Assembly (NCBI RefSeq): GCF_000331535.1
Contig: NZ_AMZN01000002.1
Span: 62,001-126,000 of the forward strand
Reading direction: 5' to 3'
Origin: Fulvivirga imtechensis AK7
Lineage (GTDB): Bacteria; Bacteroidota; Bacteroidia; Cytophagales; Cyclobacteriaceae
DNA length: 64,000 nucleotides
The position numbers and the translations under genes were made by a program. Under the pieces are notes generated by a model. It saw only the letters and a list, made by a program, of their open reading frames with translations, did not search any database and had not been told where the DNA came from. Positions 4,927-57,734 of this stretch are shown one piece after another (position 1 is the stretch's first letter; each line of letters opens with the position of its first letter).

Positions 4927-4936
4927 AATATGAACA

Positions 4937-5292
4937 TAGTTCAAGTCTTGAGCGTAGCGGTGACTTGGACCTAACTAACTCTAAGTCTTCAGACTTAGAC
5001 ATAGAAAACAACGTAAGTCTGAAGACTTACAAATAGGCGAGGCACAAGTGACGCTAATCGCTTAACACTTGCGCCAGTGTCGAAATAAAATAAAATATGG
5101 TTCAAGTCTTGAGCGCAGCGGTGACTTGGACCTGATTTACCCTAAGTCTTCAGACTTAGATAAAAAACAACGTAAGTCTGAAGACTTACAGATAATCAGG
5201 CACAAGTGACGCTATCGCTGAACACTTGCGCCAGGTGCAGAAACAAAACGAAAACCATGGTTCAAGTCTTAAGCGCAGCGGTGACTTGGACC
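4937..5292. repeat. Tandem ~160-bp repeat carrying several hairpins each (2.2 copies)
   Basis: The gap between the two amylase genes holds a unit repeated at about 4937, 5099 and 5259 (last copy only its first 34 bp). Each full unit contains four inverted repeats: GGTTCAAGTC pairing with GACTTGGACC (5099-5132); CTAAGTCTTCAGACTTAG (4981-4998, 5142-5159); GTAAGTCTGAAGACTTAC (5013-5030, 5172-5189), which is also nearly the reverse complement of the previous one; and GGCACAAGTG pairing with CACTTGCGCC (5041-5075, 5199-5232). No open frame or tRNA fold explains it. It resembles REP/BIME-type intercistronic elements that can affect mRNA decay or DNA topology. Confidence 0.85.
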
Positions 5293-5309
5293 CAATTAAC
5301 ATAAAAAAT

Positions 5310-6959
5310 ATGACTAAACCCTCCGCTACCTCCGTTTCTCCTCTGCTCCCTCTGCGGTTGATCATCTCCGTTTTTGCATTGCTGATCATCTCCTGTCAAT
5401 CGGAAGAAACCACCCAATCCGTCACCGAGCAGCAACAAATCTCCGCCTGGCCGGAGCACGGTATCACCTACGAGATCTTCGTCCAGTCGTTCTATGACTC
5501 CGATGGAGACAGCATTGGTGACATTAAAGGCATGACCAGCAAGCTGGACTACCTGCAGGATCTGGGGGTAGAAGCAGTATGGCTGATGCCCATAATGCCC
5601 TCACCATCATACCACAAATACGATGTTACTGACTATAAAGACATTCATCCCGATTATGGCACGATGGAAGATTTTAAGACTTTTGTAAAAGAGGCTCACA
5701 AGCATGATATTAAAGTTGTGATCGACCTGATCATCAACCATACTTCCTCAGAGCACCCATGGTTTAAAAGCGCTGCTTCTGATCGGGATAGTGAATATAG
5801 AGATTATTTTGTATGGGCTGATAAAGATTCTATTGCTGAACAACTGGCTAAAAAAGAAATATCCTTTGATTCCGATAACATCAGACAGTGGCATGCCGTA
5901 GATGGTGATACCCTGGCCGAGCATTACTACGGCTTCTTTTACGGAGGTATGCCTGATCTGAATTTCGATAATCTCGAACTGCGGGCAGAGATCTATGACA
6001 TTGGCCGGTATTGGCTGGAAGAGGTAGGAGTGGACGGCTTCAGACTAGATGCCGCCAAACACATATATCCTGACGACAGGGCGGCAGACAACCATGCGTT
6101 TTGGATAGAATTTAGAGATAAAATGAAGGAGGTAAAACCCGATGTATATTTAGTAGGAGAGGTGTGGTCCGATACCGACACCCAGGCCCCTTATGCAGAG
6201 GGTTTTTCGGCCTTATTCAACTTTGACCTGGCATTTAGCATCCTGGAAACTCTTCATAAGGGGGAAGACGTCACGGCTGTTATTGCCGGTCATGGTTGGA
6301 AGTTACAAGAAGACAAGTCATTAGTAGATGGCTACATCAATAGCAAAAGGGAGTTTGTCAAATACAATCCCGACTTTGCCATTGCCACCTTCCTGAGCAA
6401 CCATGACCAGAATCGGGTGATGAGCGTGCTGGACAACGATCCGGAAAAAGCCAAAATGGCTGCCTCCATACTGCTGACCTTACCCGGAGCGCCTTATTTA
6501 TACTATGGCGAAGAAATAGGCATGCGAGGCATGAAGCCTGACGAGCACATCCGTGAGCCGTTCGTATGGGCACCTGCTACACAGGACACCGGCCGCTCGA
6601 AATGGATCACTCCAAAATTCACTACAGATGCATCTGTAACCCCACTCAGCGAGCAAATGGAGGATCCCACCTCGATTTACAACCATTACAAAACCATGAT
6701 CGCCCTTCGAAAAGGCAGCGAAATACTTACCTATGGCGACATTGAGGTGGTTGAAAACCCGAACAAAGGACTGGTGATCTTTGAGAGACACTATGAAGGT
6801 AAGAAATTGCTCGTTATTCACAATGTTTCAGGCGAGGCTCAGACTGTAGAAGAGGAGATGCTGAATGGCTTTTCTGAGGTTTATTTCAGTTCTTTTGATT
6901 TGGAGAGTGTTGATAGAAGGGTGGAAATGCCGGGGTATGGAACGGTGGTTTTGAGGTAA
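5310..6959 (+). CDS. GH13 alpha-amylase-family lipoprotein (SusG-like role)
   Basis: A 549-residue glycoside hydrolase. I place the start at ATG 5310 because it gives a clean lipoprotein signal peptide with lipobox I-I-S-Cys29; an in-frame ATG at 5226 lies within the upstream repeat array. The TIM barrel begins at ~residue 45 with I-T-Y-E-I-F-V-Q-S-F and shows H-K-Y-D-V-T-D-Y and I-I-N-H-T. Catalytic residues are Asp247 (G-F-R-L-D), Glu284 (V-G-E-V-W) and Asp366 (S-N-H-D-Q). A C-terminal all-beta domain follows. The motifs resemble the oligo-1,6-glucosidase/neopullulanase/SusG side of GH13, so alpha-1,4 and possibly alpha-1,6 bonds of maltodextrins are likely substrates. As a lipoprotein it should act at the outer membrane or in the periplasm. 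Confidence 0.9.
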   Translation: MTKPSATSVSPLLPLRLIISVFALLIISCQSEETTQSVTEQQQISAWPEHGITYEIFVQSFYDSDGDSIGDIKGMTSKLDYLQDLGVEAVWLMPIMPSPSYHKYDVTDYKDIHPDYGTMEDFKTFVKEAHKHDIKVVIDLIINHTSSEHPWFKSAASDRDSEYRDYFVWADKDSIAEQLAKKEISFDSDNIRQWHAVDGDTLAEHYYGFFYGGMPDLNFDNLELRAEIYDIGRYWLEEVGVDGFRLDAAKHIYPDDRAADNHAFWIEFRDKMKEVKPDVYLVGEVWSDTDTQAPYAEGFSALFNFDLAFSILETLHKGEDVTAVIAGHGWKLQEDKSLVDGYINSKREFVKYNPDFAIATFLSNHDQNRVMSVLDNDPEKAKMAASILLTLPGAPYLYYGEEIGMRGMKPDEHIREPFVWAPATQDTGRSKWITPKFTTDASVTPLSEQMEDPTSIYNHYKTMIALRKGSEILTYGDIEVVENPNKGLVIFERHYEGKKLLVIHNVSGEAQTVEEEMLNGFSEVYFSSFDLESVDRRVEMPGYGTVVLR

Positions 6960-11651: not shown

Positions 11652-14600
11652 CTATTTTAAGATCATTACGGTTCCCTTGAAAGTGCGCCCTGCACTGTCA
11701 TTTAATTTGATGACATAAAAGTATGTGTCTACAGGTAGTCCCCTGCCATTAAAAGTACCATCCCAGGGTTTTTCATATCCAATAGATTTGAATATTTCCT
11801 GTCCGTTGCGGTTGTAAATGCGTACTTCAATATTGGGGTGGCCCGAGATATTATCAATTTCCCAGGTATCATTCGCACCATCACCATCAGGAGTGAACCC
11901 GGTGTAGATAATGGGTTCAAGTTCAGTATCCGGTAGCAGGGTGAGTGTAAATGATTTTTCCACGAAAGCTTCGCGGTTATCGGTCGACCTTACCCGAATA
12001 GAAAATTGCTGTTGAACATCAACATTGAATTTAGCTGCTGCTACTAATTTATTCTCTTCAATATCAAAGCTACTGTTGTCATCATCGCCAGTGCCCTCCA
12101 CTAAAGTGTAGGTGAAGGTGTCGCCCACATCCACATCAGTGGTTGAGAAGGTGCCGACTACCTCTCCTAAGCCCAGTGTCTCTATTAGAGATGTATTGCT
12201 AAGGGCAATATCCGTAGGGGCAGTATTTACCACTACTACTGATACATTGAAGCTGGTAGTGGCTTGTTTATCCCCATCAGTAACGGTGATAGTTATAAGA
12301 GCGGTGCCCGTAGCATCGGCAGCCGGTTGAACCTGGATAGTCCGGTTGCCATCGCTGCCAGCCAGGGTAATACCGGAAACGGGAATGAGAGATGTATTAT
12401 CTGATGTTGCCGATACCTCAAGGTCACCTGTGGCATTGTCAATATCGCTTATTGTAAAGCTGAGCACATCACTTGTGGTATTAACCTCAATCTCAATATC
12501 AGCAAGTTCAGTGATAGCAGGTGCATCATTAACAGCATTGATCGTAATGGTCACCGTGGCCACAGCCGATGTGTTAGAGCCATCATTGGCGCGATAGGTA
12601 AAGCTGTCGCTGCCATTAAAGTCTGCTTCAGGGGTATAGGTAAAAGAACCGTCCGCATTCAATGCTAAAGTGCCATTAGATGGTCCTGACTCCAGAATAG
12701 CGGTGAGTGATGTAGCCTCTGTATCTGTATCATTGGACAAAACACCCGGTGCGGATATGTTGAGAGGTACATCCTCATCAGTTGAATAGGAATCATCAGC
12801 GGCTATAGGCGCATCGTCATCCACCGGGTTAATGGTAATACTGAAGGTCTGTCCGGTCAGGTTATTTCCGCTACCATCCTGCACATCGAAATCGAAGCTG
12901 TCAGAAGTGGTGTTGCTATGGTCGTGGGTGTAAATAACCTGATTGGCATTAAGCTGAGCCTGAGTAAAGCTGGTAATAGCTACTCCCGGACCTGAAGTCA
13001 ACTCCAGTTGACCATTAACCGGAGAGGTTGTAACAACATAAGTCAAATCATCATTGTTTGTATCTTCATCATCAGCCTGTAGTTCACCACTGCCGATGGT
13101 CTCTGTAGCCCCTTCATCAAGTGTAATACCGGTATTGGTGGTGATAGTCGGAGCAGTGTCATCTACAGGTGTAATGGTGATGTTAAAATTCTGCCCTGTC
13201 AGATCGTTGCCACTTCCATCCTGCACATCGAAGGTAAAACTGTCTGATATGCTATTGCTGCCATCATGAATGTAAACCACCAGGTTAGCATTTAATTGTG
13301 CCTGGGTAAAACTGTTGATAGCGACTCCTGATCCTGAAGTTAGTTCTATCTGCCCGTTTGCCGGGGCAGCAGTGATAACATAGGTCAGGGCATCATTGTT
13401 TGTATCCGTATCGTTGGCTTGTAGTTCGCCACTATCAATGATTTCGCTGGCTCCTTCAATTAGTGTTATTCCAGTGTTTATAGTCACTGTAGGTACATCA
13501 TCATCCACAGGATTGATCGTAATGTTAAATGTTTGCCCTGTGAGGTCGTTGCCACTGCCATCCTGCACATCAAAGGTAAAGCTGTCTGAAGTGGTATTGG
13601 AGTCATCGTGGACATAAACCACCTGATTGGCATTCAACTGTGCCTGTGTGAAATTGGTGATAGCTACTCCCGGACCGGTGGTCAGCTCCAATTGTCCGTT
13701 AGCAGGGGTTGTTGTAATGTCATAAACCAGTATGTTGTCGTCAGTATCCGGGTCGCTGGCCTGTAGTTCACCGCTGTCAATGGTTTCCGTAGCCCCTTCA
13801 TCGAGTGTGATGCCGGTGTTGGCGGTGATCACAGGCGCGTCATCATCGATAGGGTTGATGGTGATACTAAATGTTTGCCCTGTGAGGTTATTTCCGCTAC
13901 CGTCCTGCACATCGAAGGTGAAGCTGTCGGAGATACTGTTGCCGCCATCATGAACGTAAACTACGAGATTGGCATTGAGCTGCGCCTGAGTAAAGCTGTT
14001 AATTGCCACTCCAGGTCCTGATGTTAGTTCTATCTGCCCGTTAGCCGGGGCTGCTGTGATGGCAAAGATCAGGGCATCATTGTTCGTATCCGTATCGTTG
14101 GCCTGTAATTCTCCACTGTCGATGGTTTCTGTAGCCCCTTCACTTAATGTTATTCCATTGTTGATAGTCACTGTAGGCACATCATCATCCACAGGATTGA
14201 TCGTAATGTTAAATGTTTGACCTGTGAGGTTGTTGCCACTGCCGTCCTGCACATCAAAGGTAAAGCTGTCTGAAGTGGTATTGGAGTCATCGTGGACATA
14301 AACCACCTGATTGGCATTCAACTGTGCCTGCGTGAAATTGGTGATGGCTACTCCCGGACCGGTGGTCAGCTCCAGTTGCCCGTTAGCCGGAATTGTTGTA
14401 ATGTCATAAACCAGTGTGTTGTCATCGGTATCCGGGTCGCTGGCCTGCAGCTCACCACTGTCAATGGTTTCCGTAGCTCCTTCATCGAGTGTGATGCCGG
14501 TGTTGGCGGTGATCACAGGCGCGTCATCATCGATAGGGTTGATGGTGATGCTGAAGGTTTGCCCTGTCAGGTTATTTCCGCTACCGTCCTGCACATCGAA

Positions 14601-17600
14601 GGTGAAGCTGTCGGAGGTACTGTTGCCGCCATCATGGATGTAGATCACCTGATTAGCATTCAACTGTGCCTGCGTAAAATTGGTGATAGCAACTCCCGGA
14701 CCAGTGGTCAACTCCAGTTGTCCGTTGGCAGGTGCCGCGGTGACTGCATAAACAAGGGTGTTGTTATCAGTATCAGGGTCATTAGCCTGTAGCTTGCCAC
14801 TGTCAATAGTTTCTGTGGCTCCTTCGTTGAGGGTGATGCCGGTGTTGACTGTTATAACCGGAGCATCATCATCGACAGGATTGATGGTGATGCTGAATGT
14901 CTGACCCGTCAGATTGTTGCCACTACCATCCTGTACATCAAAAGTAAAGCTATCTGAAGTAGTGTTGGAATCATCATGAATGTAGACCACCTGATTTGCA
15001 TTCAACTGTGCCTGTGTGAAATTGGTGATCGCTACTCCTGGACCGGTAGTCAGCTCCAGTTGCCCGTTAGCCGGAATTGTTGTAATGTCATAGACCAGTG
15101 TGTTGTCATCGGTATCCGGGTCGCTGGCCTGCAGTTCACCGCTGTCAATGGTTTCCGTAGCTCCTTCGTTGAGTGTGATGCCGGTGTTGGCGGTGATCAC
15201 AGGCGCGTCATCATCGATAGGGTTGATGGTAATACTGAAGGTTTGCCCTGTGAGGTTGTTGCCGCTACCGTCTTGCACATCGAAGGTGAAGCTGTCGGAG
15301 GTGCTGTTGCCGTCATCATGGATGTAGATCACCTGATTTGCATTCAACTGTGCCTGTGTGAAATTGGTGATAGCAACTCCCGGGCCAGTGGTTAACTCCA
15401 GTTGTCCGTTGGCAGGTGCTGCTGTGACGGCATAAACCAATGTGTTGTTATCCGTGTCCGGGTCGTTGGCCTGCAACTCACCACTGTCAATGGTTTCTGT
15501 AGCGCCTTCGTCAAGCGTGATGCCGGTGTTAACGGTGATCACTGGCGTGTCATCGTCAATAGGGTTGATAGTAATGCTGAAGGTCTGTCCTGTCAGGTTA
15601 TTGCCACTGCCGTCCTGTACATCGAAAGTGAAACTGTCTGAAGTGGTATTGGAGTCATCGTGGACATAAACCACCTGGTTATTTACTACCTGTGTCTGTG
15701 TGAAGCTGCTGACGGGTACCCCCGGGTTAGTGGTCAGCTCTATCTGTCCGTTGGCAGGCCCTGCGGTGATCGCAAAAACCAATGTGTTATTGTCAGTATC
15801 AGTATCATTGGCTCGTAACTCACCGCTATCGATGATTTCCGTATCACCCTCATTGAGGGTTATACCCGTATTGTTGATGAGGGTAGGAGTGTCGTCATCC
15901 ACAGGGATGATGGTGATGCTAAAGGTCTGCCCGGTGAGGTTATTGCCACTACCGTCCTGCACATCGAAGGTGAAGCTGTCGGAGGTGGTATTTGAGCCAT
16001 TGTGTATATAAATGACCTGGTTGGCGTTGAGTTGTGCTTGTGTAAAGCTGGTAATAACGCCAGGGCCTGTAGTCAATTCCAGTTGTCCGTTCGAAGGGCT
16101 GGATGTGACGGAGTAAACAAGATTATCGTTGTTGGTGTCAGGATCATCTGCCTGCAATTCACTGCTGTTGATGGTTTCCGTGTCGCCTTCGTTGAGCGTG
16201 ATGCCTGTGTTGGTAATGATTGATGGTGCAGTATCGTCAATAGGGTTGATGGTAATGCTAAAAATTTGGCCTACAAGATTATTACCACTGCCATCCTGCA
16301 CATCGAAAGTAAAGCTATCGGAAGTGCTGTTTCCATCATCATGGACATACACCACCTGATTGGCATTAAGTTGTGCCTGTGTAAAGCTGGTGACAGGCAC
16401 TCCGGGTCCGGTGGTCAGTTCCAACTGTCCGTTTGATGGCCCTGCCGTGATAGCGTACACTAAATTGTCGTTGTTGGTGTCTGTATCGTTAGCCTGCAGT
16501 TCGGTGTTGTTGATGGTTTCCGTGGCGCCTTCATTTAGTGTAATGCCTGTATTTGTAACGATAGTAGGAGCTACATCATCAACATCATTGATATTGATGG
16601 TTACATTTTCAGCGCTGCTGGTATTGGTGCCGTCACTTACCGTTACCTGTATGATCAGGCTGGTATTCGCCTCGTAGTTCAGGTCTCCGGGGTCATTAAC
16701 CGTGATCTGCCCGGTACTGCTATTGATGGAGAAGGCATTATTCCCATCTCCATCCGGGTTGGCGTTGGTCGTGATAGTCCAGTTTTGGAAAGTAGTGCCG
16801 GCATCTGAATCCGTAGCTGCTACGGTGCCTACCACGGTGCTGGCAGCACTGTTTTCATTTACAGAGAAAGACTGGCCCGGGGTCACTACTGGTGTTTCGT
16901 CATCGTCATTTATAGTGTAGGTAACTTGTTGGAAACCACCTGATTCTGTGCCGTTGGTTACAGAGGTAATGTCGACTATTATAGTTTCATCAGATTCGTC
17001 CAGGTTGTCGTCTATTATATTGATAGGAATATTGTCGCTGATATCCCCTGCAGCTATTATAAGCGAAGAGGAAGCCGTATAGTCCACTCCCTGTGTAGCT
17101 GTACCTGAGAAACTGAAATTGATCGTTGTTGCCAAACCCGATACGGCAGACAACTCACAGACGATATCGATGGTGCCATCTCCCTCACTTGCTGACGTTA
17201 CGGAGGGGTTGAATGTCACGGTAGGAGCGGGGTCATCATTATTAATGGTACACTGGCCTTGGCTGTCCGCAATATTGGCGTTGACCGGATTGGTGAGGTT
17301 AACATAAAACACCTCATTATTCTCATAAAGTGCATCCTCAAGGATGGGCACATCAATAGTTTTGGACGTTTCTCCTGCAAGGAAGGTGAGGGTGCCACTG
17401 GTTGCCGTGTAGTCGCTGCCACTGGTGGCCGTGCCATTAGCGGTGGCATAGTCAACAGTGACCGTACTGCTGCTGGAGGCAGATAATGATACTGTAAAGC
17501 TGGCGGTGGTGTTGTTTTCGGTTAAAGCTATGTCGTTGATGCTGAGGTCGGGGGTGGAAGCGGGGATTTGGCCGGAGAAGTTATCCATAAGTACAGCTTC

Positions 17601-23489: not shown

Positions 23490-23905
23490 ATTATGTTTCG
23501 ATTGACAGTCGGAACATTTATCTTTTAGCAGATATCGGTGTCTACATGGCATCATCCCGGACGTAACGCAGTGAAGATCCGGGATCTACCCACTATTGAC
23601 AGTGTCGGGAACTTTAGCTTCAGGCCGATCGGGAGATTCCAGGATGACGTGGTGGTTTAATTCCGCTCAATATTGAGACTGGCGGGATGACGTTCTTACT
23701 GAGCATCACACTCCCTGTAGTTTGTAGTCGCGATCAACAAAAAACTAAAGGGGATTATTCCCTTTTATTTCGGGTCGTTTTCCTCTGTTACCCGCCTATG
23801 GCAACAACTAATTTTGAATTACTAAAACCAACTGAAAGCGAATTTCAGTACAGCGGATTCTGAAAAGCTGCAACAGAGTAAGAGTAATTCAAAAACCAAC
23901 AAACC
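23490..23905. other. Long gene-free leader of the subtilase with a REP-like hairpin
   Basis: This 416-bp gap holds no credible gene. At 23554-23585 an 8-bp palindrome (ATCCCGGA pairing with TCCGGGAT) lies in a sequence resembling intergenic repeats common in Bacteroidota (GACGTAACGCAGTGAAGATC), followed by decayed related text to ~23700. At 23747-23770 AAAGGG pairs with CCCTTT and is followed by TATTT, a weak candidate terminator for the two-component operon. Confidence 0.5.
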
Positions 23906-38420: not shown

Positions 38421-38576
38421 TAATTAGTGACTTTAAGAAAACGCCAATGTCTGCGTTACGCTCGCCCCAAAAATGCTCACGTACCTCAGTACGCTCCGCT
38501 TTTTGGCACTTCGTCCCGCCCTTTGGCGGGAACGTTTTCTTAAAGCCACTTAGAGTTTTCTTAGAGGCACTAATTA
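38421..38576. repeat. Dispersed palindromic element, copy A
   Basis: A 156-bp inverted-repeat element. Outer arms are TAATTAGTG (38421-38429) and CACTAATTA (38568-38576). Inside lie arms of the form GACTTTAAGAAAACG/CGTTTTCTTAAAGCC, a middle pair CCAAAAA/TTTTTGG and an inner hairpin CGTAC-CTCA-GTACG. The core CAATGTCTGCGTTACGCTCG is shared with copies B (43334-43520) and C (56206-56357). It abuts the stop codon of the adjacent lipoprotein gene. Confidence 0.85.
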
Positions 38577-38939
38577 ATCGGGGCAACTTGAATCATCAAA
38601 CTTCTGTCCGTATAATATAAGCTCAATAGTTTCATCCCCGTCAGCAGTGATAGGGCCTCTTTCGGCTTCGCTGGCTTCACGGGCTGAAAAATAGAACTCG
38701 TCACCTTCTTTTCTAAAATCTACCGGTATATTTAACAGTTCTACCACGTTAGCATGCCCTTGCCAGGTGACAGAAAGTGGTATCGGGTCTTCCAGGCTCA
38801 CGGCCAGGCCACCTCCGGAAGACCTGATCTTACCAATAGTTTCTCCCTTGAGGCAATCGTACCTCGCCAGGTCTCCGTCATCATCGTCAGAAGAGCAGGA
38901 CATTAAAGCCAACAGCACTATTACAAATATCTTTTTCAT
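38574..38939 (-). CDS. Small hypothetical lipoprotein
   Basis: A 121-residue lipoprotein with lipobox L-M-S-Cys15, followed by an acidic S-S-D-D-D-D-G-D stretch usual after lipidation sites of surface-exposed Bacteroidota lipoproteins. The remaining ~95 residues have two further Cys (in R-Y-D-C-L-K and near the end, S-S-C-P-D) that could form a disulfide. The family is not recognised. The TAA stop coincides with the terminal repeat of palindromic element copy A, so the C-terminus may have been cut or altered by insertion of that element. Confidence 0.7.
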   Translation of the reverse strand: MKKIFVIVLLALMSCSSDDDDGDLARYDCLKGETIGKIRSSGGGLAVSLEDPIPLSVTWQGHANVVELLNIPVDFRKEGDEFYFSAREASEAERGPITADGDETIELILYGQKFDDSSCPD

Positions 38940-42166: not shown

Positions 42167-43534
42167 TCAGTCTTGAATATAAGTAATTATCCCACTATCG
42201 TCAATCTTTATTTTTACTTCAGGGAAATCTTTTTCTGTGAGTTGCTGTAAACGCCTGATAACCTGCTTCTCAGGGTCGATACTCGGTCCACCGGGAGCAT
42301 GTTGAATAATGGGGGTTACTTCTGCATACAGGAATTTGCCCTCACTGTTTGTAAATACTTTTATGATTGGCGCCAGGCCATTGTCGCCTCGTAAGTTAAA
42401 TCTGGCATACGTAGCAAAATTTCCCAGACTATAGCTAATAAATCGTTCTTTGTATACTTCTACTGCTCGTGTAACGTGCGGCCCATGACCAAAAACCACA
42501 TCAGCGCCAGCATCAATTACATGATGTGCAAATTCATAGACATTTCCCCGGTTTTCTCCATAGAAGTATTCATTTTCACGGGTTACATGCTGATATTTAC
42601 TTCCTTCGGCACCTCCATGAAAACTCACGATCACAATATCACTGATGGAATCCAGATGCGCTATTATTTTCCCTGCATTGGATAGATCATTGATGCTAAC
42701 GGTACCTGTATTGGGTGCAAAGGCGGCAAAACCATATTTCATGCCTTCCATTTCAAAGGTTGTGAAGGGCCTGGTAAGCAGACCGGCATGTTCTATCCCG
42801 AGGGAGTCCAATGTCCTCATGGTGTTTAACCTGCCGGGGTCACCAAAGTCACCAGCATGGTTGTTGGCCGTGCTCATCACATCAAAACCCGCTTCTTTAA
42901 GCCGCTGAGCCATATACTCCGGAGACCTGAAGATATAACATATTTTTGGGTCTTTGCAGTATTTAGGATCACCACCTTCGTTTAAGATCACACCTTCAAG
43001 ATTGCCAAAGGTGATGTCTGCATTTTGCAATATTGGAGTCACCTCCGCTAAAAGCCCTCTTCCCTCATCAGGAGGCAGGTACCAGGATTCGGGAAAATTA
43101 GTGCCTAGCATAATGTCGCCCACTCCGATAATGGAAACGGTATCTTTAAATATCCTATGTACATTTAGCTCAACCGTATCGGGTATGTACCGGGCTGCCG
43201 TGGTATCGACCGGTATTGTAACCGTATCAGTTTTTGCAACTTCAGGTTGGTCACCGGCAGCGCCCGGTCTTTGTGCTACTTTACATGCACTAAAAATAAG
43301 CGAAAGCACAATAACAAGACCGGTATATTTAAATAGTGGCTTTAAGAAAACGTCAATGTCTGCGTTATGCTCGTCCCAAAAATGCTTTTCCCGACAACTG
43401 TACGGGACTCCGCTTTTTTGGGCTTCACAGGCCCTAGCTCCCCCAAAGCGGCTTCGCGAAGGTGAACTTGACCTTAACGTTTTCTTAAAGCCACCTTGAG
43501 TTTTCGTACAAGTACTGATTAAGGGATATTTCAT
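42167..43534 (-). CDS. CapA-like lipoprotein with a repeat-encoded insertion in its signal peptide
   Basis: A 455-residue protein whose main domain (~140-395) matches the CapA/PgsA metallophosphatase-like family: V-G-D-I-M-L-G-T-N, G-N-L-E-G-V, A-N-N-H-A-G-D-F-G, S-F-H-G-G-A-E and G-H-G-P-H-V. Such proteins are tied to poly-gamma-glutamate or capsule synthesis in firmicutes; the role here is uncertain. Its lipobox (F-S-A-Cys84) lies ~60 residues later than normal, because residues ~6-67 are encoded by palindromic element copy B. Residues 1-5 (M-K-Y-P-L) and 68-84 joined together would make an ordinary lipoprotein signal. No other plausible start codon exists between the repeat and the hydrophobic core. 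First gene of the operon with merR, dprA and dnaJ-TPR. Confidence 0.85.
   Translation of the reverse strand: MKYPLISTCTKTQGGFKKTLRSSSPSRSRFGGARACEAQKSGVPYSCREKHFWDEHNADIDVFLKPLFKYTGLVIVLSLIFSACKVAQRPGAAGDQPEVAKTDTVTIPVDTTAARYIPDTVELNVHRIFKDTVSIIGVGDIMLGTNFPESWYLPPDEGRGLLAEVTPILQNADITFGNLEGVILNEGGDPKYCKDPKICYIFRSPEYMAQRLKEAGFDVMSTANNHAGDFGDPGRLNTMRTLDSLGIEHAGLLTRPFTTFEMEGMKYGFAAFAPNTGTVSINDLSNAGKIIAHLDSISDIVIVSFHGGAEGSKYQHVTRENEYFYGENRGNVYEFAHHVIDAGADVVFGHGPHVTRAVEVYKERFISYSLGNFATYARFNLRGDNGLAPIIKVFTNSEGKFLYAEVTPIIQHAPGGPSIDPEKQVIRRLQQLTEKDFPEVKIKIDDSGIITYIQD
43334..43520. repeat. Dispersed palindromic element, copy B (inside the capA-like gene)
   Basis: A ~187-bp copy with arms AGTGGCTTTAAGAAAACGT (43335-43353) and ACGTTTTCTTAAAGCCAC (43478-43495), the shared core CAATGTCTGCGTTATGCTCG, a CCAAAAA/TTTTTGG middle pair and an inner hairpin CCCG-ACAACTGTA-CGGG. 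It is about 30 bp longer than copies A and C owing to extra sequence at ~43430-43470. It is open in the reading frame of the host gene. Confidence 0.85.
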
Positions 43535-43642: not shown

Positions 43643-45289
43643 CTACTCGTTTTCGAGTTTCTTTTTAATTTCAGAAATCACTTGATCCAGCTCTTGTCCG
43701 GCTTCCTTCAGCATATTTTTATAACTCTTGTAGCCATCGTTGGGCAATTCCTTATCCATCAGATATACCAGTCCAAGGATCCTTGCCAGGGGCCCTCTTA
43801 CATTGTGAGCGTTAAGAAAAGCATATTCCATAAGTCGCTTGTTTTGCTGTTGTATTTTTTGTGTTCTCTCCAACACCAGGTCTTCAAGTGTTGCATTAAC
43901 CGTTTTTATTTTCTCATTATAGGTCTGTAACTCTTCCGCCTGGGCCTTCAATTCTTCTGATTGCTGCAGGATCTCATCCTGCTGTTCTTTCAGTGTATAA
44001 TTAAGGCGGCTCTTTGCTTTCATATTTCTGAATAAGAAAAATGATAGAACGGATAATAATATAAGGGCCATGATAATGATCAGGTTAAAACGTCTTTGGT
44101 TATGGATCACAATAGCGCTGGCTTTAGCTTGCTCCTCAAGCAATTGCTTCTCCAGTTCCTGGTTTTCGGTTTCCAGTGTAATCTGCTGATTGGCTAGTTC
44201 AATGTATGATTCGGGAGCATATATTGTATTATGCAGGTCACTATAGATCTTGTGATAGTGATAAGCATTGGCGTTGTCACCCTTAGAGGCATATGCTTCA
44301 GCAACTATTCTGGCTACACGTTCAATACCTTCGGTGGTAACCCCTTCAATACTAGCCATTTCTATAGCTTTAATGCCATTTGCGATACATTCATCCATAT
44401 ATCCTAAGTGGTAATGAGCTTCTGAAATGGTACTCAGTGTCATAATGATCCCCCTGGTAAAATTGAGGATATTATACACCTCAAGACCTTTTCCCGCTTC
44501 TTCCAGGGCCTTGTTAAAATTGTTATTTAATAAATGGACCTGGGCTTTACGGTTTTGAATGTAAGCGAAGGTACTGGAGATCTTCAGGTTTTTACTGATC
44601 AGATACGTGAGAACAGAATCGTATTTATTTAACGCCAGGTCATAACGGCCCTTGTCTTTATAAACCGTACCCGTATTTATAAATGGAGAAGTATAGATTA
44701 CCGGTGCCTTTTGTGCATAGTCGCTAGCCTTTGCGTAGGCCTCCAAGGCCCGGTCATAGTTCCGGGTTATCCGGTATATTTCACCCATTAAATTCCAGCC
44801 TCTTGCTCGTAAATAGAGGTCTGGCTCACTATTTTGGTCAATAGCCATGGATTGCCTGGCATATCGCAGTGCCATGGTATAGTTTGCCTTAATATCCAGA
44901 TAGGTATAAGCCGTACTTATCAATGTCTGAGCTTTATAGTGCGAATTGCCTGCTTTTTCAAAGGCCTCCAATGCTGTGGTAGCATAATAATTAATATCAT
45001 CAGCATCCCGTACAAAATCTAGCAGAGCATAACAGCTCAATCCTATTCCAAATGTATAATCTATCTGGCGTGATATCGCCAGGGCCTCTCTTGCGCGTTG
45101 TTGCCCTTCGTCTCTGGAGATGGTCAGTGATTTGGATAGCGCTACCAATGTCTGCACCCGCACCGTATCATGCTGGGCGTTGTTAAGAGCTGCATATAAG
45201 CTGTCATTTTGGCTATATAAATTTGAAAAAAAAGAGACGCCTGAAACCGCAAGAATCAATAGTTTGAAAAGTTGTAACCAGGTCCTCAT
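43643..45289 (-). CDS. TPR sensor protein ending in a lone HisKA-like (DHp) domain
   Basis: A 548-residue membrane protein: signal peptide (ending L-Y-S-Q), tetratricopeptide repeats (~30-350), a TM helix (~393-415), a long coiled coil (~417-475) and a HisKA-like segment with His495 (L-N-A-H-N-V-R-G-P-L-A-R-I-L-G-L). Only 53 residues follow the His, ending in charged helix; no N, G1 or G2 box is present, so it cannot be an autonomous kinase. The same architecture is seen in other Bacteroidota, suggesting a real class rather than a recent truncation. It might be phosphorylated by another kinase or act as a dimerising scaffold. The downstream 107 bp contain no remnant of an ATPase domain. Confidence 0.85.
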   Translation of the reverse strand: MRTWLQLFKLLILAVSGVSFFSNLYSQNDSLYAALNNAQHDTVRVQTLVALSKSLTISRDEGQQRAREALAISRQIDYTFGIGLSCYALLDFVRDADDINYYATTALEAFEKAGNSHYKAQTLISTAYTYLDIKANYTMALRYARQSMAIDQNSEPDLYLRARGWNLMGEIYRITRNYDRALEAYAKASDYAQKAPVIYTSPFINTGTVYKDKGRYDLALNKYDSVLTYLISKNLKISSTFAYIQNRKAQVHLLNNNFNKALEEAGKGLEVYNILNFTRGIIMTLSTISEAHYHLGYMDECIANGIKAIEMASIEGVTTEGIERVARIVAEAYASKGDNANAYHYHKIYSDLHNTIYAPESYIELANQQITLETENQELEKQLLEEQAKASAIVIHNQRRFNLIIIMALILLSVLSFFLFRNMKAKSRLNYTLKEQQDEILQQSEELKAQAEELQTYNEKIKTVNATLEDLVLERTQKIQQQNKRLMEYAFLNAHNVRGPLARILGLVYLMDKELPNDGYKSYKNMLKEAGQELDQVISEIKKKLENE

Positions 45290-47930: not shown

Positions 47931-48147
47931 ATAAAATTTTCACCCCTTATCGGTGTAAGTTTTATGATTTTGGGAGAAAATACGGGTGAAACCAGAAGGA
48001 AATACACTTCAATTTAAGCTGCTGAATGGCTGAAAGTCACTTAGAGGTTTCTTACAAATACTAACTTAACACTAGCAATCAAATATAACGAATAACATAA
48101 CTATTTTCTGGCTGTTATGTTATTAATTTTAACCAAATCACATCGAA
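47931..48147. other. Intergenic region with a fragment of the dispersed palindromic element
   Basis: No gene. At 48028-48061 a segment (containing GTCACTTAGAGGTTTCTTAC and followed by AAATACTAA) matches the terminal part of element copy C (56327-56355) at most positions, without the rest of the element: a solo end or decayed copy. Further on, AATAACATAAC (48090-48100) is nearly mirrored by GTTATGTTATT (48114-48124), a possible weak hairpin ahead of the DUF4168 gene. Confidence 0.5.
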
Positions 48148-55034: not shown

Positions 55035-56177
55035 ATGAATTTTATTAAAGTTGTAGTTATATCTGTTCTTGGTTTCTGGGCTTGCTCATCAGACTCTGCA
55101 TCACAGGAGAAAAGTAAAAATACTATCACGCTTTCAGGTACTGTAGGTTACCCGCAAAAGAATGGGCTGATCCTGCTTGAAAGGTTTGAAGGTACCAATC
55201 CTGTACCATTTGATACCATCACACTAAATGAAAATTACACTTTCAGGGAGCAGGTATACATACCAGTTGCAGGGTATTACCGACTTAACTTTTACAATAA
55301 ACAGGCAGTGCCCCTCATTTTGGATAAAGATAATGTAGAGGTAAATGTAGATGGAAACGATCAGCGCGGCTTTTTCCAGGTAAATGGATCCCGTGATCAT
55401 GATTTTATCAATGATGTTCAGGAAATGGCGCAACAGTTTCAGTCTTCAGATGAAGTCAGGGACATTAACAGCAGGTTTATGACTGCCAATGAGGCAGGAG
55501 ATGAAGCCACTATGGATGCACTAAGGGCTGAGTATATGAGTATGGACGCTGAATTTAAAAATGAGATCAAATCCAGAATTGATTCGATCGGTGCATCTCT
55601 GGGCGTAGTAGAAGTGTTAAAAGGTGGCAGGTACCTGGACAAAGACAAAAATTATGAATTCTATCGTAATTATGCCGAATTACTAAAGAAGGAAATGCCT
55701 AACTCCACAGTTGCGCAGGATTTTGTGAAAGAGGTGGAGCAAATGGGTAAGCTTGCAATCGGACAGGTTGCCCCTGATATTGCGCTTCCGAGTCCTGATG
55801 GTGAAATTGTTAAACTATCCTCATTGCGTGGCAACTATGTATTGGTTGACTTCTGGGCTAAGTGGTGCAAACCCTGCCGCATGGAAAATCCTAATGTGGT
55901 AAGGATGTACAACAAGTATAACGACAAAGGGTTCGAAGTATATGGAGTGTCTCTTGACAGAAAGAAAGAAGATTGGCTTCAGGCTATTGAAGAAGATGGC
56001 CTACACTGGACCCAAGTTTCGGACTTGAAGTATTGGAACTCGGAAGCCGCCAGGCTCTACAATATCAATGCCATTCCATTTGCCCTGTTGCTTGATCCGG
56101 AAGGGGTCATCATAGGCAAGAATCTACGAGGCAAAGAACTGGAAAATAAACTGGAAGAGATCTTTGCAAATAAATAG
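55035..56177 (+). CDS. TlpA/ResA-like thioredoxin lipoprotein with DUF4369 domain
   Basis: A 380-residue lipoprotein (lipobox F-W-A-Cys17). An N-terminal DUF4369 beta domain (~28-115) and a helical linker (~120-235) are followed by a thioredoxin-like AhpC/TSA-Redoxin domain (~243-378) with active-site Cys278-Lys-Pro-Cys281 (W-A-K-W-C-K-P-C-R-M-E-N-P) and the cis-Pro loop I-N-A-I-P-F. It should be a periplasm-facing thiol-disulfide reductase. It begins 18 bp after gatB and may share its transcript. Confidence 0.93.
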   Translation: MNFIKVVVISVLGFWACSSDSASQEKSKNTITLSGTVGYPQKNGLILLERFEGTNPVPFDTITLNENYTFREQVYIPVAGYYRLNFYNKQAVPLILDKDNVEVNVDGNDQRGFFQVNGSRDHDFINDVQEMAQQFQSSDEVRDINSRFMTANEAGDEATMDALRAEYMSMDAEFKNEIKSRIDSIGASLGVVEVLKGGRYLDKDKNYEFYRNYAELLKKEMPNSTVAQDFVKEVEQMGKLAIGQVAPDIALPSPDGEIVKLSSLRGNYVLVDFWAKWCKPCRMENPNVVRMYNKYNDKGFEVYGVSLDRKKEDWLQAIEEDGLHWTQVSDLKYWNSEAARLYNINAIPFALLLDPEGVIIGKNLRGKELENKLEEIFANK

Positions 56178-56205: not shown

Positions 56206-56357
56206 ACAGTGGCTCTGAGAAAACGTCAATGTCTGCGTTATGCTCGTCCCAAAAATGCTCATCCCGACAACGCTACGGGACTCGGCTTTTTGACACTTCA
56301 CAAGCCTTGACCTTAAAGTTTTCTTAAAGCCACTTAGAGTTTTCTTACAAACACTAA
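56206..56357. repeat. Dispersed palindromic element, copy C
   Basis: A 152-bp copy between convergent genes. Its left arm (CAGTGGCTCTGAGAAAACGT, 56207-56226) is partly degenerate relative to the right arm (TTTTCTTAAAGCCACTTAGA, from 56319). The core CAATGTCTGCGTTATGCTCG and the inner hairpin CCCG-ACAACGCTA-CGGG are intact. The rest of the gap (56178-56417) holds no gene. Confidence 0.85.
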
Positions 56358-56417: not shown

Positions 56418-57734
56418 CTATTTCATTTTTATTCGGGCAATGTTGTCATTGAACCGGCCATTCTTCAGTTGCCAGATCTGGTATTCCCTGTCAGGGACAT
56501 CACCATTTTTATCAAAATCGAGGGAGCTGTTCACTCCATCATAATCTATATCCTTGCCAGCCTTGAGTAGTTTTCTCACTTCAGTCAGATCTTTGGCCTT
56601 AACCTTCTTTCCGGTATGGGATACAGCCCTTATATGTTCTGCTAAAGCCGTGGCATCAGTGGTATTGCCTTGTATCATCGCCAGCGCAAACAAATATACA
56701 ATGTCGTAGACATCTGCTGTTTCTTCGTACTCAGGTCTTTTGCCATACGTCTTCTCAAATTTTTCTTCAAACGAAGTTTCTTTCAGGCTCTTTACAGAAG
56801 TGCCATACATACCATCCAGCGCAGGGAGGCTGGCTTTCTCTAAGACATTATCTCCCCTCATGGCATCAGAACCAATAATGGCCGGCCTGTGATCTTTAAA
56901 TACCTGAGCGCTATCCAATTGATGTGATATGTCGATGATATCTATACTGTTGGAAACAAGGTACAAAACGTTAGGTTTGGATTCCAGAATTTCCGCTACC
57001 TTGGGGGAGACGTCATAATCTCGCAGGTTGACAAGCGGACTGTAGTATGCTTCTCCTACAATTTTACCTCCTGACTGCTCGAAATTCTTCTTAAACTCAT
57101 CAGCCAGTCCTTTGCCATACACATTATTGAGGTAGAAAATGGCAGCGGTTTTATGCCCAAGGTTTTGAGAGGAATAGATGGCAGCCGTTTTTCCTTGCAA
57201 GGCATCAGACGCGGCAGTGCGAAACGCCATATCGTTATCTTCCAGGGTAGTCACCTCAACGGAGGTGGCTGAAGGAGAAATAGCTACAACAGGGTTTTCG
57301 GCAATCACTTCATTCACTACTTTGATAAAACGACTGGAGCTGGTTGGGCCTATTAACCCGGCAACCTTGTACTTACTTGTCAGCTTTTGGGCCTTGTCAG
57401 CAGCAAAGCCTGATTCTGCAGCATCATCGGCAGGTATCAGGTGCAGTTGTTTCCCTAAGATATATCCGGAAGCATTGATCTCATTGACGGCAAGCTGGCC
57501 TCCCTGGATTAACTCGCTGGAAAAATCCTTAAATTTTGATATTGGTAGAATGAGCCCGAGGTTGATCGTCTTTCCAGATAACACCAGGGTGGAGTCGACA
57601 TTTATCGGGAGTGATGACTTTTCGAGGTCAACAGCCACCAGTTCATTAATATCAAGGTTTTGTAGTCCTTCATCCTGGGCGTTCACTCCAGTGGCGATGG
57701 AGTATGCAATTGTTAAGACAATTAGTTTTCTCAT
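56418..57734 (-). CDS. Substrate-binding protein of the branched-chain amino-acid receptor type (paralogue 1)
   Basis: A 438-residue exported protein with signal peptide (ending V-N-A-Q). A short conserved N-terminal segment (N-L-D-I-N-E-L-V-A-V-D-L) precedes a type 1 periplasmic-binding fold (~50-430): I-N-L-G-L-I-L-P-I-S, L-I-G-P-T-S-S-S-R-F, A-I-S-P-S-A-T-S and N-N-V-Y-G-K-G-L-A-D-E-F, as in Peripla_BP_6 proteins. No permease or ATPase gene is nearby, so whether it serves a transporter is open. A paralogue follows the same plan 100 bp upstream. Confidence 0.85.
   Translation of the reverse strand: MRKLIVLTIAYSIATGVNAQDEGLQNLDINELVAVDLEKSSLPINVDSTLVLSGKTINLGLILPISKFKDFSSELIQGGQLAVNEINASGYILGKQLHLIPADDAAESGFAADKAQKLTSKYKVAGLIGPTSSSRFIKVVNEVIAENPVVAISPSATSVEVTTLEDNDMAFRTAASDALQGKTAAIYSSQNLGHKTAAIFYLNNVYGKGLADEFKKNFEQSGGKIVGEAYYSPLVNLRDYDVSPKVAEILESKPNVLYLVSNSIDIIDISHQLDSAQVFKDHRPAIIGSDAMRGDNVLEKASLPALDGMYGTSVKSLKETSFEEKFEKTYGKRPEYEETADVYDIVYLFALAMIQGNTTDATALAEHIRAVSHTGKKVKAKDLTEVRKLLKAGKDIDYDGVNSSLDFDKNGDVPDREYQIWQLKNGRFNDNIARIKMK

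Follow-up and report, generated by a model that had tools for sequence, protein, structure and literature searches.

The best-known examples of protein-coding palindromes inserted in frame come from Rickettsia and Wolbachia, endosymbionts that are usually thought to be under weak selection. For the Rickettsia palindromic elements (RPEs), such insertion is credited to Ogata 2000 and 2002 in the passages of PMC10969869 and PMC2229807 that treat the subject. The corresponding passage of the review PMC10969869 adds that other prokaryotes may have undergone something similar, and Delihas 2007 (PMC2229807) reports MITE frames fused in several bacteria. One of these is Yersinia YPAL/RU-2, which at locus YPO1552 forms part of a predicted signal peptide. 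Here we describe a comparable arrangement in Fulvivirga imtechensis AK7, found in a stretch of 64,000 nucleotides (the window; contig NZ_AMZN01000002.1, positions 62001 to 126000).

The gene concerned is an intact open reading frame (ORF) on the minus strand of the window (42167-43534), whose 455 amino acid product is a CapA-like (PGA_cap) lipoprotein (Pfam PF09587, E 1e-47). Inside this ORF lies a 180 bp palindromic repeat, copy B (43336-43515, minus strand); relative to the element model, it is the opposite strand that is in frame with the gene. On the plus strand its target site duplication reads TAAATA on the left (43330-43335) and TGATTA on the right (43516-43521), the latter a decayed TANNTA. 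Copy B and one duplication together make an insert of 186 nucleotides, i.e., 62 codons without a stop, between the N-terminal residues MKYPL and the host part of the signal peptide (43283-43333, minus strand; FKYTGLVIVLSLIFSAC), and element-encoded residues therefore make up part of the signal-peptide n-region. The first-pass annotation had placed the repeat there, with the lipobox Cys at position 84, and both statements are confirmed on the translation of the intact ORF. With its hydrophobic core and lipobox Cys (LVIVLSLIFSAC), the Cys aligning by eye with that of congeners, the protein has the sequence features of a bacterial lipoprotein and its lipidation is predicted. The insertion is not young, since copy B has a mean identity of 78.8% to the other full copies, under the first quartile of 81.1%, and its duplication differs between the two sides at two of six positions.

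Matches to CapA are present in all 14 other genomes of the genus, the closest named relatives being those of Fulvivirga kasyanovii and F. marina. An alignment with orthologues, which the first-pass annotation had proposed, reveals the empty site in two congeners, G014 (MIYTFLKYSCLLLAIAVVFSAC) and G008 (MIYTSIKYLCLLLAITVVFSAC). Neither N-terminus contains the element, and each is as long as MKYPL plus FKYTGLVIVLSLIFSAC with the element taken away, so that the element must have been inserted in frame in CapA, as had been suspected. The same annotation had counted orthologues with the same N-terminus and no repeat as a refutation; this was worded backwards, since such orthologues represent the empty site and speak for an insertion. 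The frame upstream of CapA in G014 ends in EIKNRLET and the neighbouring ORF in the window (43643-45289) in EIKKKLENE; from this comparison by eye, the gene neighbourhood looks conserved between the two.

The repeat is a MITE, having inverted-repeat ends, a target duplication, a high copy number, a short length and no transposase. Full copies have TAGTGTCTCTAAGAAAAC and its complement as ends and TANNTA on either side. In the consensus both ends are TAGTGTYTSTAAGAAAAC-like terminal inverted repeats, and on one side many copies have an additional, inner version of the end. In a first sample of 75 full copies, the length is 123-184 bp in 71, the 6-bp TANNTA duplication is exact in 42, and agreement at the two variable bases is seen in 63 and 60 copies, respectively. 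Strictly, duplication is certain only for the middle two bases, as target preference could account in part for the outer TA pairs. The core pattern occurs 232 times in this genome and its reversed control not at all, and the RNA of the CapA copy folds into a hairpin of -73.8 kcal/mol after the start codon (z = -5.0 against shuffles), which together show that the repeat is not a chance structure. Our sample of the genome (2.57 of 6.7 Mb) contains 198 element places, 121 or 126 of them full copies depending on the cut. The 126 have a mean pairwise identity of 82.5%, which indicates that the expansion is not a very recent event.

The core pattern has no match in any of the 14 other genomes of the genus. 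Across 390 genomes of the order, including this one, three others have a single match each with three mismatches; the control has one, and such matches are at chance level. A wider search of genome contigs, a set from which this genome may be absent, gave no exact match. Two end-like matches were found in congeners, one in an apparent coding stretch of G006 and one, with no partner noted, in G013 (L278, TAATTAGTGTCTGTAAGAAAACA), a genome without the core pattern. As for an autonomous partner, the one candidate in the sample, a pair of ends 300-5000 bp apart with flanks resembling a target duplication, was judged spurious, one end coming from an ordinary copy. Among ORFs of at least 150 codons in the sampled 2.57 of 6.7 Mb there is one two-copy group (85% identity), and the element ends do not flank it. 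A second MITE family of approximately 157 bp, which shares the ends of the first but has another core (GTCATTGCGAACGAAGTGCGGCAATCCCC), occupies 29 places in the sample (C15:165342, C55:166938, C6:264794 and others), none of them an in-frame case.

Two further copies of the first family lie in the window, both outside gene bodies. Copy A (38425-38572, plus strand) is full length with TAATTA on both sides and is located at the 3' end of ORF 38574-38939; it is open in the same frame as copy B (FKKT ... NADIGVFLK), as had been noticed from the sequence, within a frame of only 72-74 codons at that end. Copy C (56208-56356, plus strand) is nearly full length (model positions 2-148) and is intergenic, with ORFs 55035-56177 and 56418-57734 as its neighbours. 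At 48046-48063 an end of the family (TAGTATTTGTAAGAAACC) stands alone, with no recognisable body. The window holds other repeats as well: a palindromic cluster at 4931-5327, with three direct copies and inverted arms around AAGTCTTGAGCGNAGCGGTGACTTGGACC, and eleven direct repeats spaced by approximately 342 nucleotides at 12733-16449, which probably belong to a repeat protein. An Rfam scan of the window gave one match, to DUF805b RNA (23850-23884, 36.9 bits against a gathering score of 35.6), and none at the element.

How often is the element read as part of a protein? We called a place in frame when an ORF with a start upstream is open through the element and continues for at least 70 codons after it. 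Ten of the 198 places inspected qualify, and in nine of these the frame leads into a signal-peptide-like hydrophobic core within approximately 20 residues. The tenth (C10:65840), a fragment of 15 codons, lacks a signal core and is not read as a case; at one additional place the frame is open through the element and has no upstream start. Six of the nine have no ATG between element and core, and all six have element-free N-termini in congeners. Besides CapA, these are an HlyD-like protein (C10:29172; MDL, the element, then AIKNSLKYVVATILLFGC, versus MKIKLTYILLIISAPFLLSGC in the congener), a DUF6048 protein (C26:35259; MLKYI, the element, then ANILLLFVATSGFCQ, versus MLRYLISIFLLTIATASFAQ), an Omp85-domain protein (C8:45396), a DUF7948/CHU_C protein (C8:71088) and a protein that we take to be L,D-transpeptidase-like and whose Pfam match is only to the Scaffold domain (C4:80483). 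The last three account for the pairs MHLVRKV, element, IIGLFVGLCSVGTCASGDP versus MKLFRLLLICSVVALFCVEAHASSGDP; MTTVKVKQL, element, IIYLLILNTPFISCSN versus MTKPAQTILTLIYICFALFSCSN; and ML, element, TRKLENRRTTQ...FLLMSC versus MRDRSQKMANLKLGLTFLYIILLSSC. Leader length equals that of the congener for CapA and DUF6048 only, and differs somewhat in the others. The consensus element has one frame per strand open throughout and one further frame nearly open, and all six leaders use the two mostly open frames. A separate peptide search of the genome, in one orientation, scored 150 of 419 candidates, of which ten are stop-free in a frame of at least 200 codons. Four of these, at C3:70443-70541 (796 codons), C9:7822-7962 (687), C39:74684-74827 (216) and C14:38073-38213 (212), lie outside the in-frame cases read here.

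We removed the element and one duplication from each of 126 full copies (the remaining 72 of the 198 places fall outside this test, not being full copies by its cut) and looked for an ATG-initiated ORF of at least 120 codons across the junction. Such an ORF is present for 21 of the 126 copies, compared to 79.5% of 3000 random TANNTA sites. Of the 21 sites, nine are within 25 codons of the first ATG and ten within 10 codons of the stop; the other two are in ORFs of 125 and 139 codons, and in none of the 126 is the interior of a long ORF interrupted. The nine N-terminal sites comprise the six leader cases and three places that are not open through the element (C1:50356, C43:5349 and C8:67524), where the start of the gene may be 86, 5 and 43 nucleotides beyond it, respectively. 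By hydropathy rules of our own rather than SignalP, 7 of the 10 in-frame places pass an earlier threshold, compared to 3 of 26 out-of-frame neighbours (Fisher test, p = 0.0013) and to a genome background of 37% (only p = 0.037); at a hydropathy of at least 2.0 the counts are 9 of 10 and 6 of 26. Signal-peptide-like genes hold a fraction of 0.33-0.35 of N-terminal TANNTA sites, and six out of six leader cases in such genes would have a chance of 0.0013-0.0019 if N-terminal tolerance were equal in all genes. All these figures are to be taken as guides, and the rules of the last test were set after the cases were known.

These observations suggest the following scenario, to which we assign a probability of a little under 0.8. 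A MITE expanded in the Fulvivirga lineage at TANNTA sites with a 6-bp duplication. Insertions in gene bodies would have been purged by selection, as the almost total absence of copies there suggests. A small number located after the start codon and before the hydrophobic core persisted in genes for predicted exported proteins, six of these with element-free N-termini in congeners. The survivors are multiples of three in length and use, on each strand, the single frame in which the element is mostly open. The 49-62 extra residues, which include Lys and Arg, would do no more than extend the n-region of a Sec or lipoprotein signal; as they would be discarded with the signal peptide, the mature protein would be unchanged and the insertion tolerated. 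For CapA, translation is predicted to begin with MKYPL (the alternative being a rare non-standard start codon) and to read through the element, with export directed by the original core and lipidation at Cys84 through the original lipobox. It is tempting to go further and regard n-regions throughout the genome as a safe harbour for a MITE that tolerates being coding, with long leaders as a recurrent product of its transposition; we hold this wider idea tentatively, as somewhat less probable than its opposite. The same caution applies to its corollary that a Lys/Arg-bearing frame is kept open on each strand, so that either direction of insertion would yield a working long leader.

Are leader insertions tolerated, or are they favoured? 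The transposase might prefer AT-rich start regions, or a basic n-region or hairpin might tune expression. Six in-frame leader copies are seen where 0.37-0.51 are expected under neutral survival, with attempts estimated from 105 full copies outside ORFs, and this excess suggests that tolerance alone may not be the whole story. The expectation may be too low, however, as it derives from intergenic survivors that were perhaps themselves thinned by selection. The two element frames are open in 39 and 43 of 126 copies, compared to approximately 12 and 6 in Markov shuffles, which would also fit favoured insertion; yet open frames can stem from one master copy, and because the copies descend from common masters the open frames are no independent proof of coding selection. 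Likewise, we give no weight to the 57 of 126 full copies whose length is a multiple of three (CapA is scored as a non-multiple, its last model base being unaligned), since the copies are related. Overall we consider favoured insertion rather unlikely.

A further question is whether the element is translated at all. It could lie in the present 5' untranslated region, with the working start after it and the open frame due to chance. Three of the nine genes (C122:1533, C43:97076 and C8:38039) do have an ATG just after the element, which in these may be a 5' untranslated region, and there are possible later starts in three of the six others: TTG at or before the core in the HlyD-like and DUF6048 genes, and GTG at the core in the Omp85-domain gene. 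Against this, no start is available in the C4:80483 and C8:71088 genes from the element up to where the core ends. In CapA just one start lies between element and Cys, a GTG located eight codons along; its use would reduce the leader to MLSLIFSAC, with no n-region. Copy B itself contains no in-frame ATG, GTG or TTG; an in-frame AUU is a conceivable start, and starts of that type are very rare. The other five elements do contain in-frame starts (ATG in the C4:80483, C8:71088 and DUF6048 genes, GTG in the Omp85-domain and HlyD-like genes), so that CapA alone requires a start upstream of the element. Translation could begin inside the element in those five, and even then most of the leader would be element-encoded. 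On balance, an untranslated element is improbable.

The CapA allele might instead be crippled, the insertion breaking export or expression and the gene being on its way to loss. This is equally improbable: the very stable hairpin behind the start codon may lower expression, and an n-region of 67 residues is far beyond the usual range, but the copy is not young and its frame is still open, the rest of CapA is free of stops and aligns end to end with its orthologues, and the leader pattern recurs in six genes.

Tolerated insertion into the leader, our preferred reading, has some practical consequences. Automatic start calling may shorten element-bearing proteins, and the n-region length that the Sec and lipoprotein pathways tolerate becomes directly testable. 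If n-regions do act as a safe harbour, they would offer selfish DNA a second way, besides that of Rickettsia, to live within protein genes; in a 6.7-Mb genome, full copies that shun gene bodies yet persist in leaders point in this direction.

How does the element compare with described repeats? REP/RAYT systems (a 20-40 bp REP and a Y1 transposase) do not fit its size and target duplication. RUP and ERIC duplicate TA, in contrast to the TANNTA seen here, and are set apart by description rather than by sequence. As described in the relevant parts of PMC2229807 and PMC10969869, ERIC, NEMIS/Correia, RUP and other MITEs share with it inverted repeats, a duplication, the lack of a transposase and hairpin transcripts. 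The extended signal peptides of autotransporters, as summarized in PMC2805444, resemble our leaders in having a basic extension before an ordinary signal peptide; that extension is approximately 25 residues long, whereas ours are 49-62 residues and of transposon origin. RPEs share several features with the element: a palindrome of 100-190 bp in many copies, with an open frame, a long RNA hairpin and in-frame insertion in unrelated genes, the last of these found here in six cases. The first-pass annotation had drawn this comparison, and it holds as an analogy but not as sequence membership. In an NCBIfam scan of the element peptides of six copies, a comparison of peptides and not of DNA, RPE5 appeared twice, at 12.8 and 13.4 bits against a cut-off of 29.45, and no other RPE model was listed. 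The hosts also differ, RPEs belonging to Rickettsia and our element to the Fulvivirga lineage, outside the Rickettsiales. Two further differences emerge from the RPE entries of PMC2229807, where the table gives "?" for a target duplication that is a clear TANNTA here, and where RPEs occur in conserved proteins such as guanylate kinase while our in-frame cases are seen only in signal-peptide n-regions. That no in-frame palindromic element was known in Bacteroidota, as the same annotation supposed, is not contradicted by the parts of the open-licence literature examined, including PMC5771137 and PMC3733652. Outside Bacteroidota, the Yersinia MITE is a partial precedent by the account in PMC2229807: there, too, the leader of a predicted exported protein contains an in-frame MITE fusion, which forms part of the predicted signal peptide, but that protein is a putative new one, whereas in Fulvivirga the n-region is lengthened in conserved genes that keep their own core. 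The principle of the in-frame palindrome is therefore already known from RPEs, and its leader-restricted variant in Bacteroidota is, relative to the portions of the open-licence literature searched, new.
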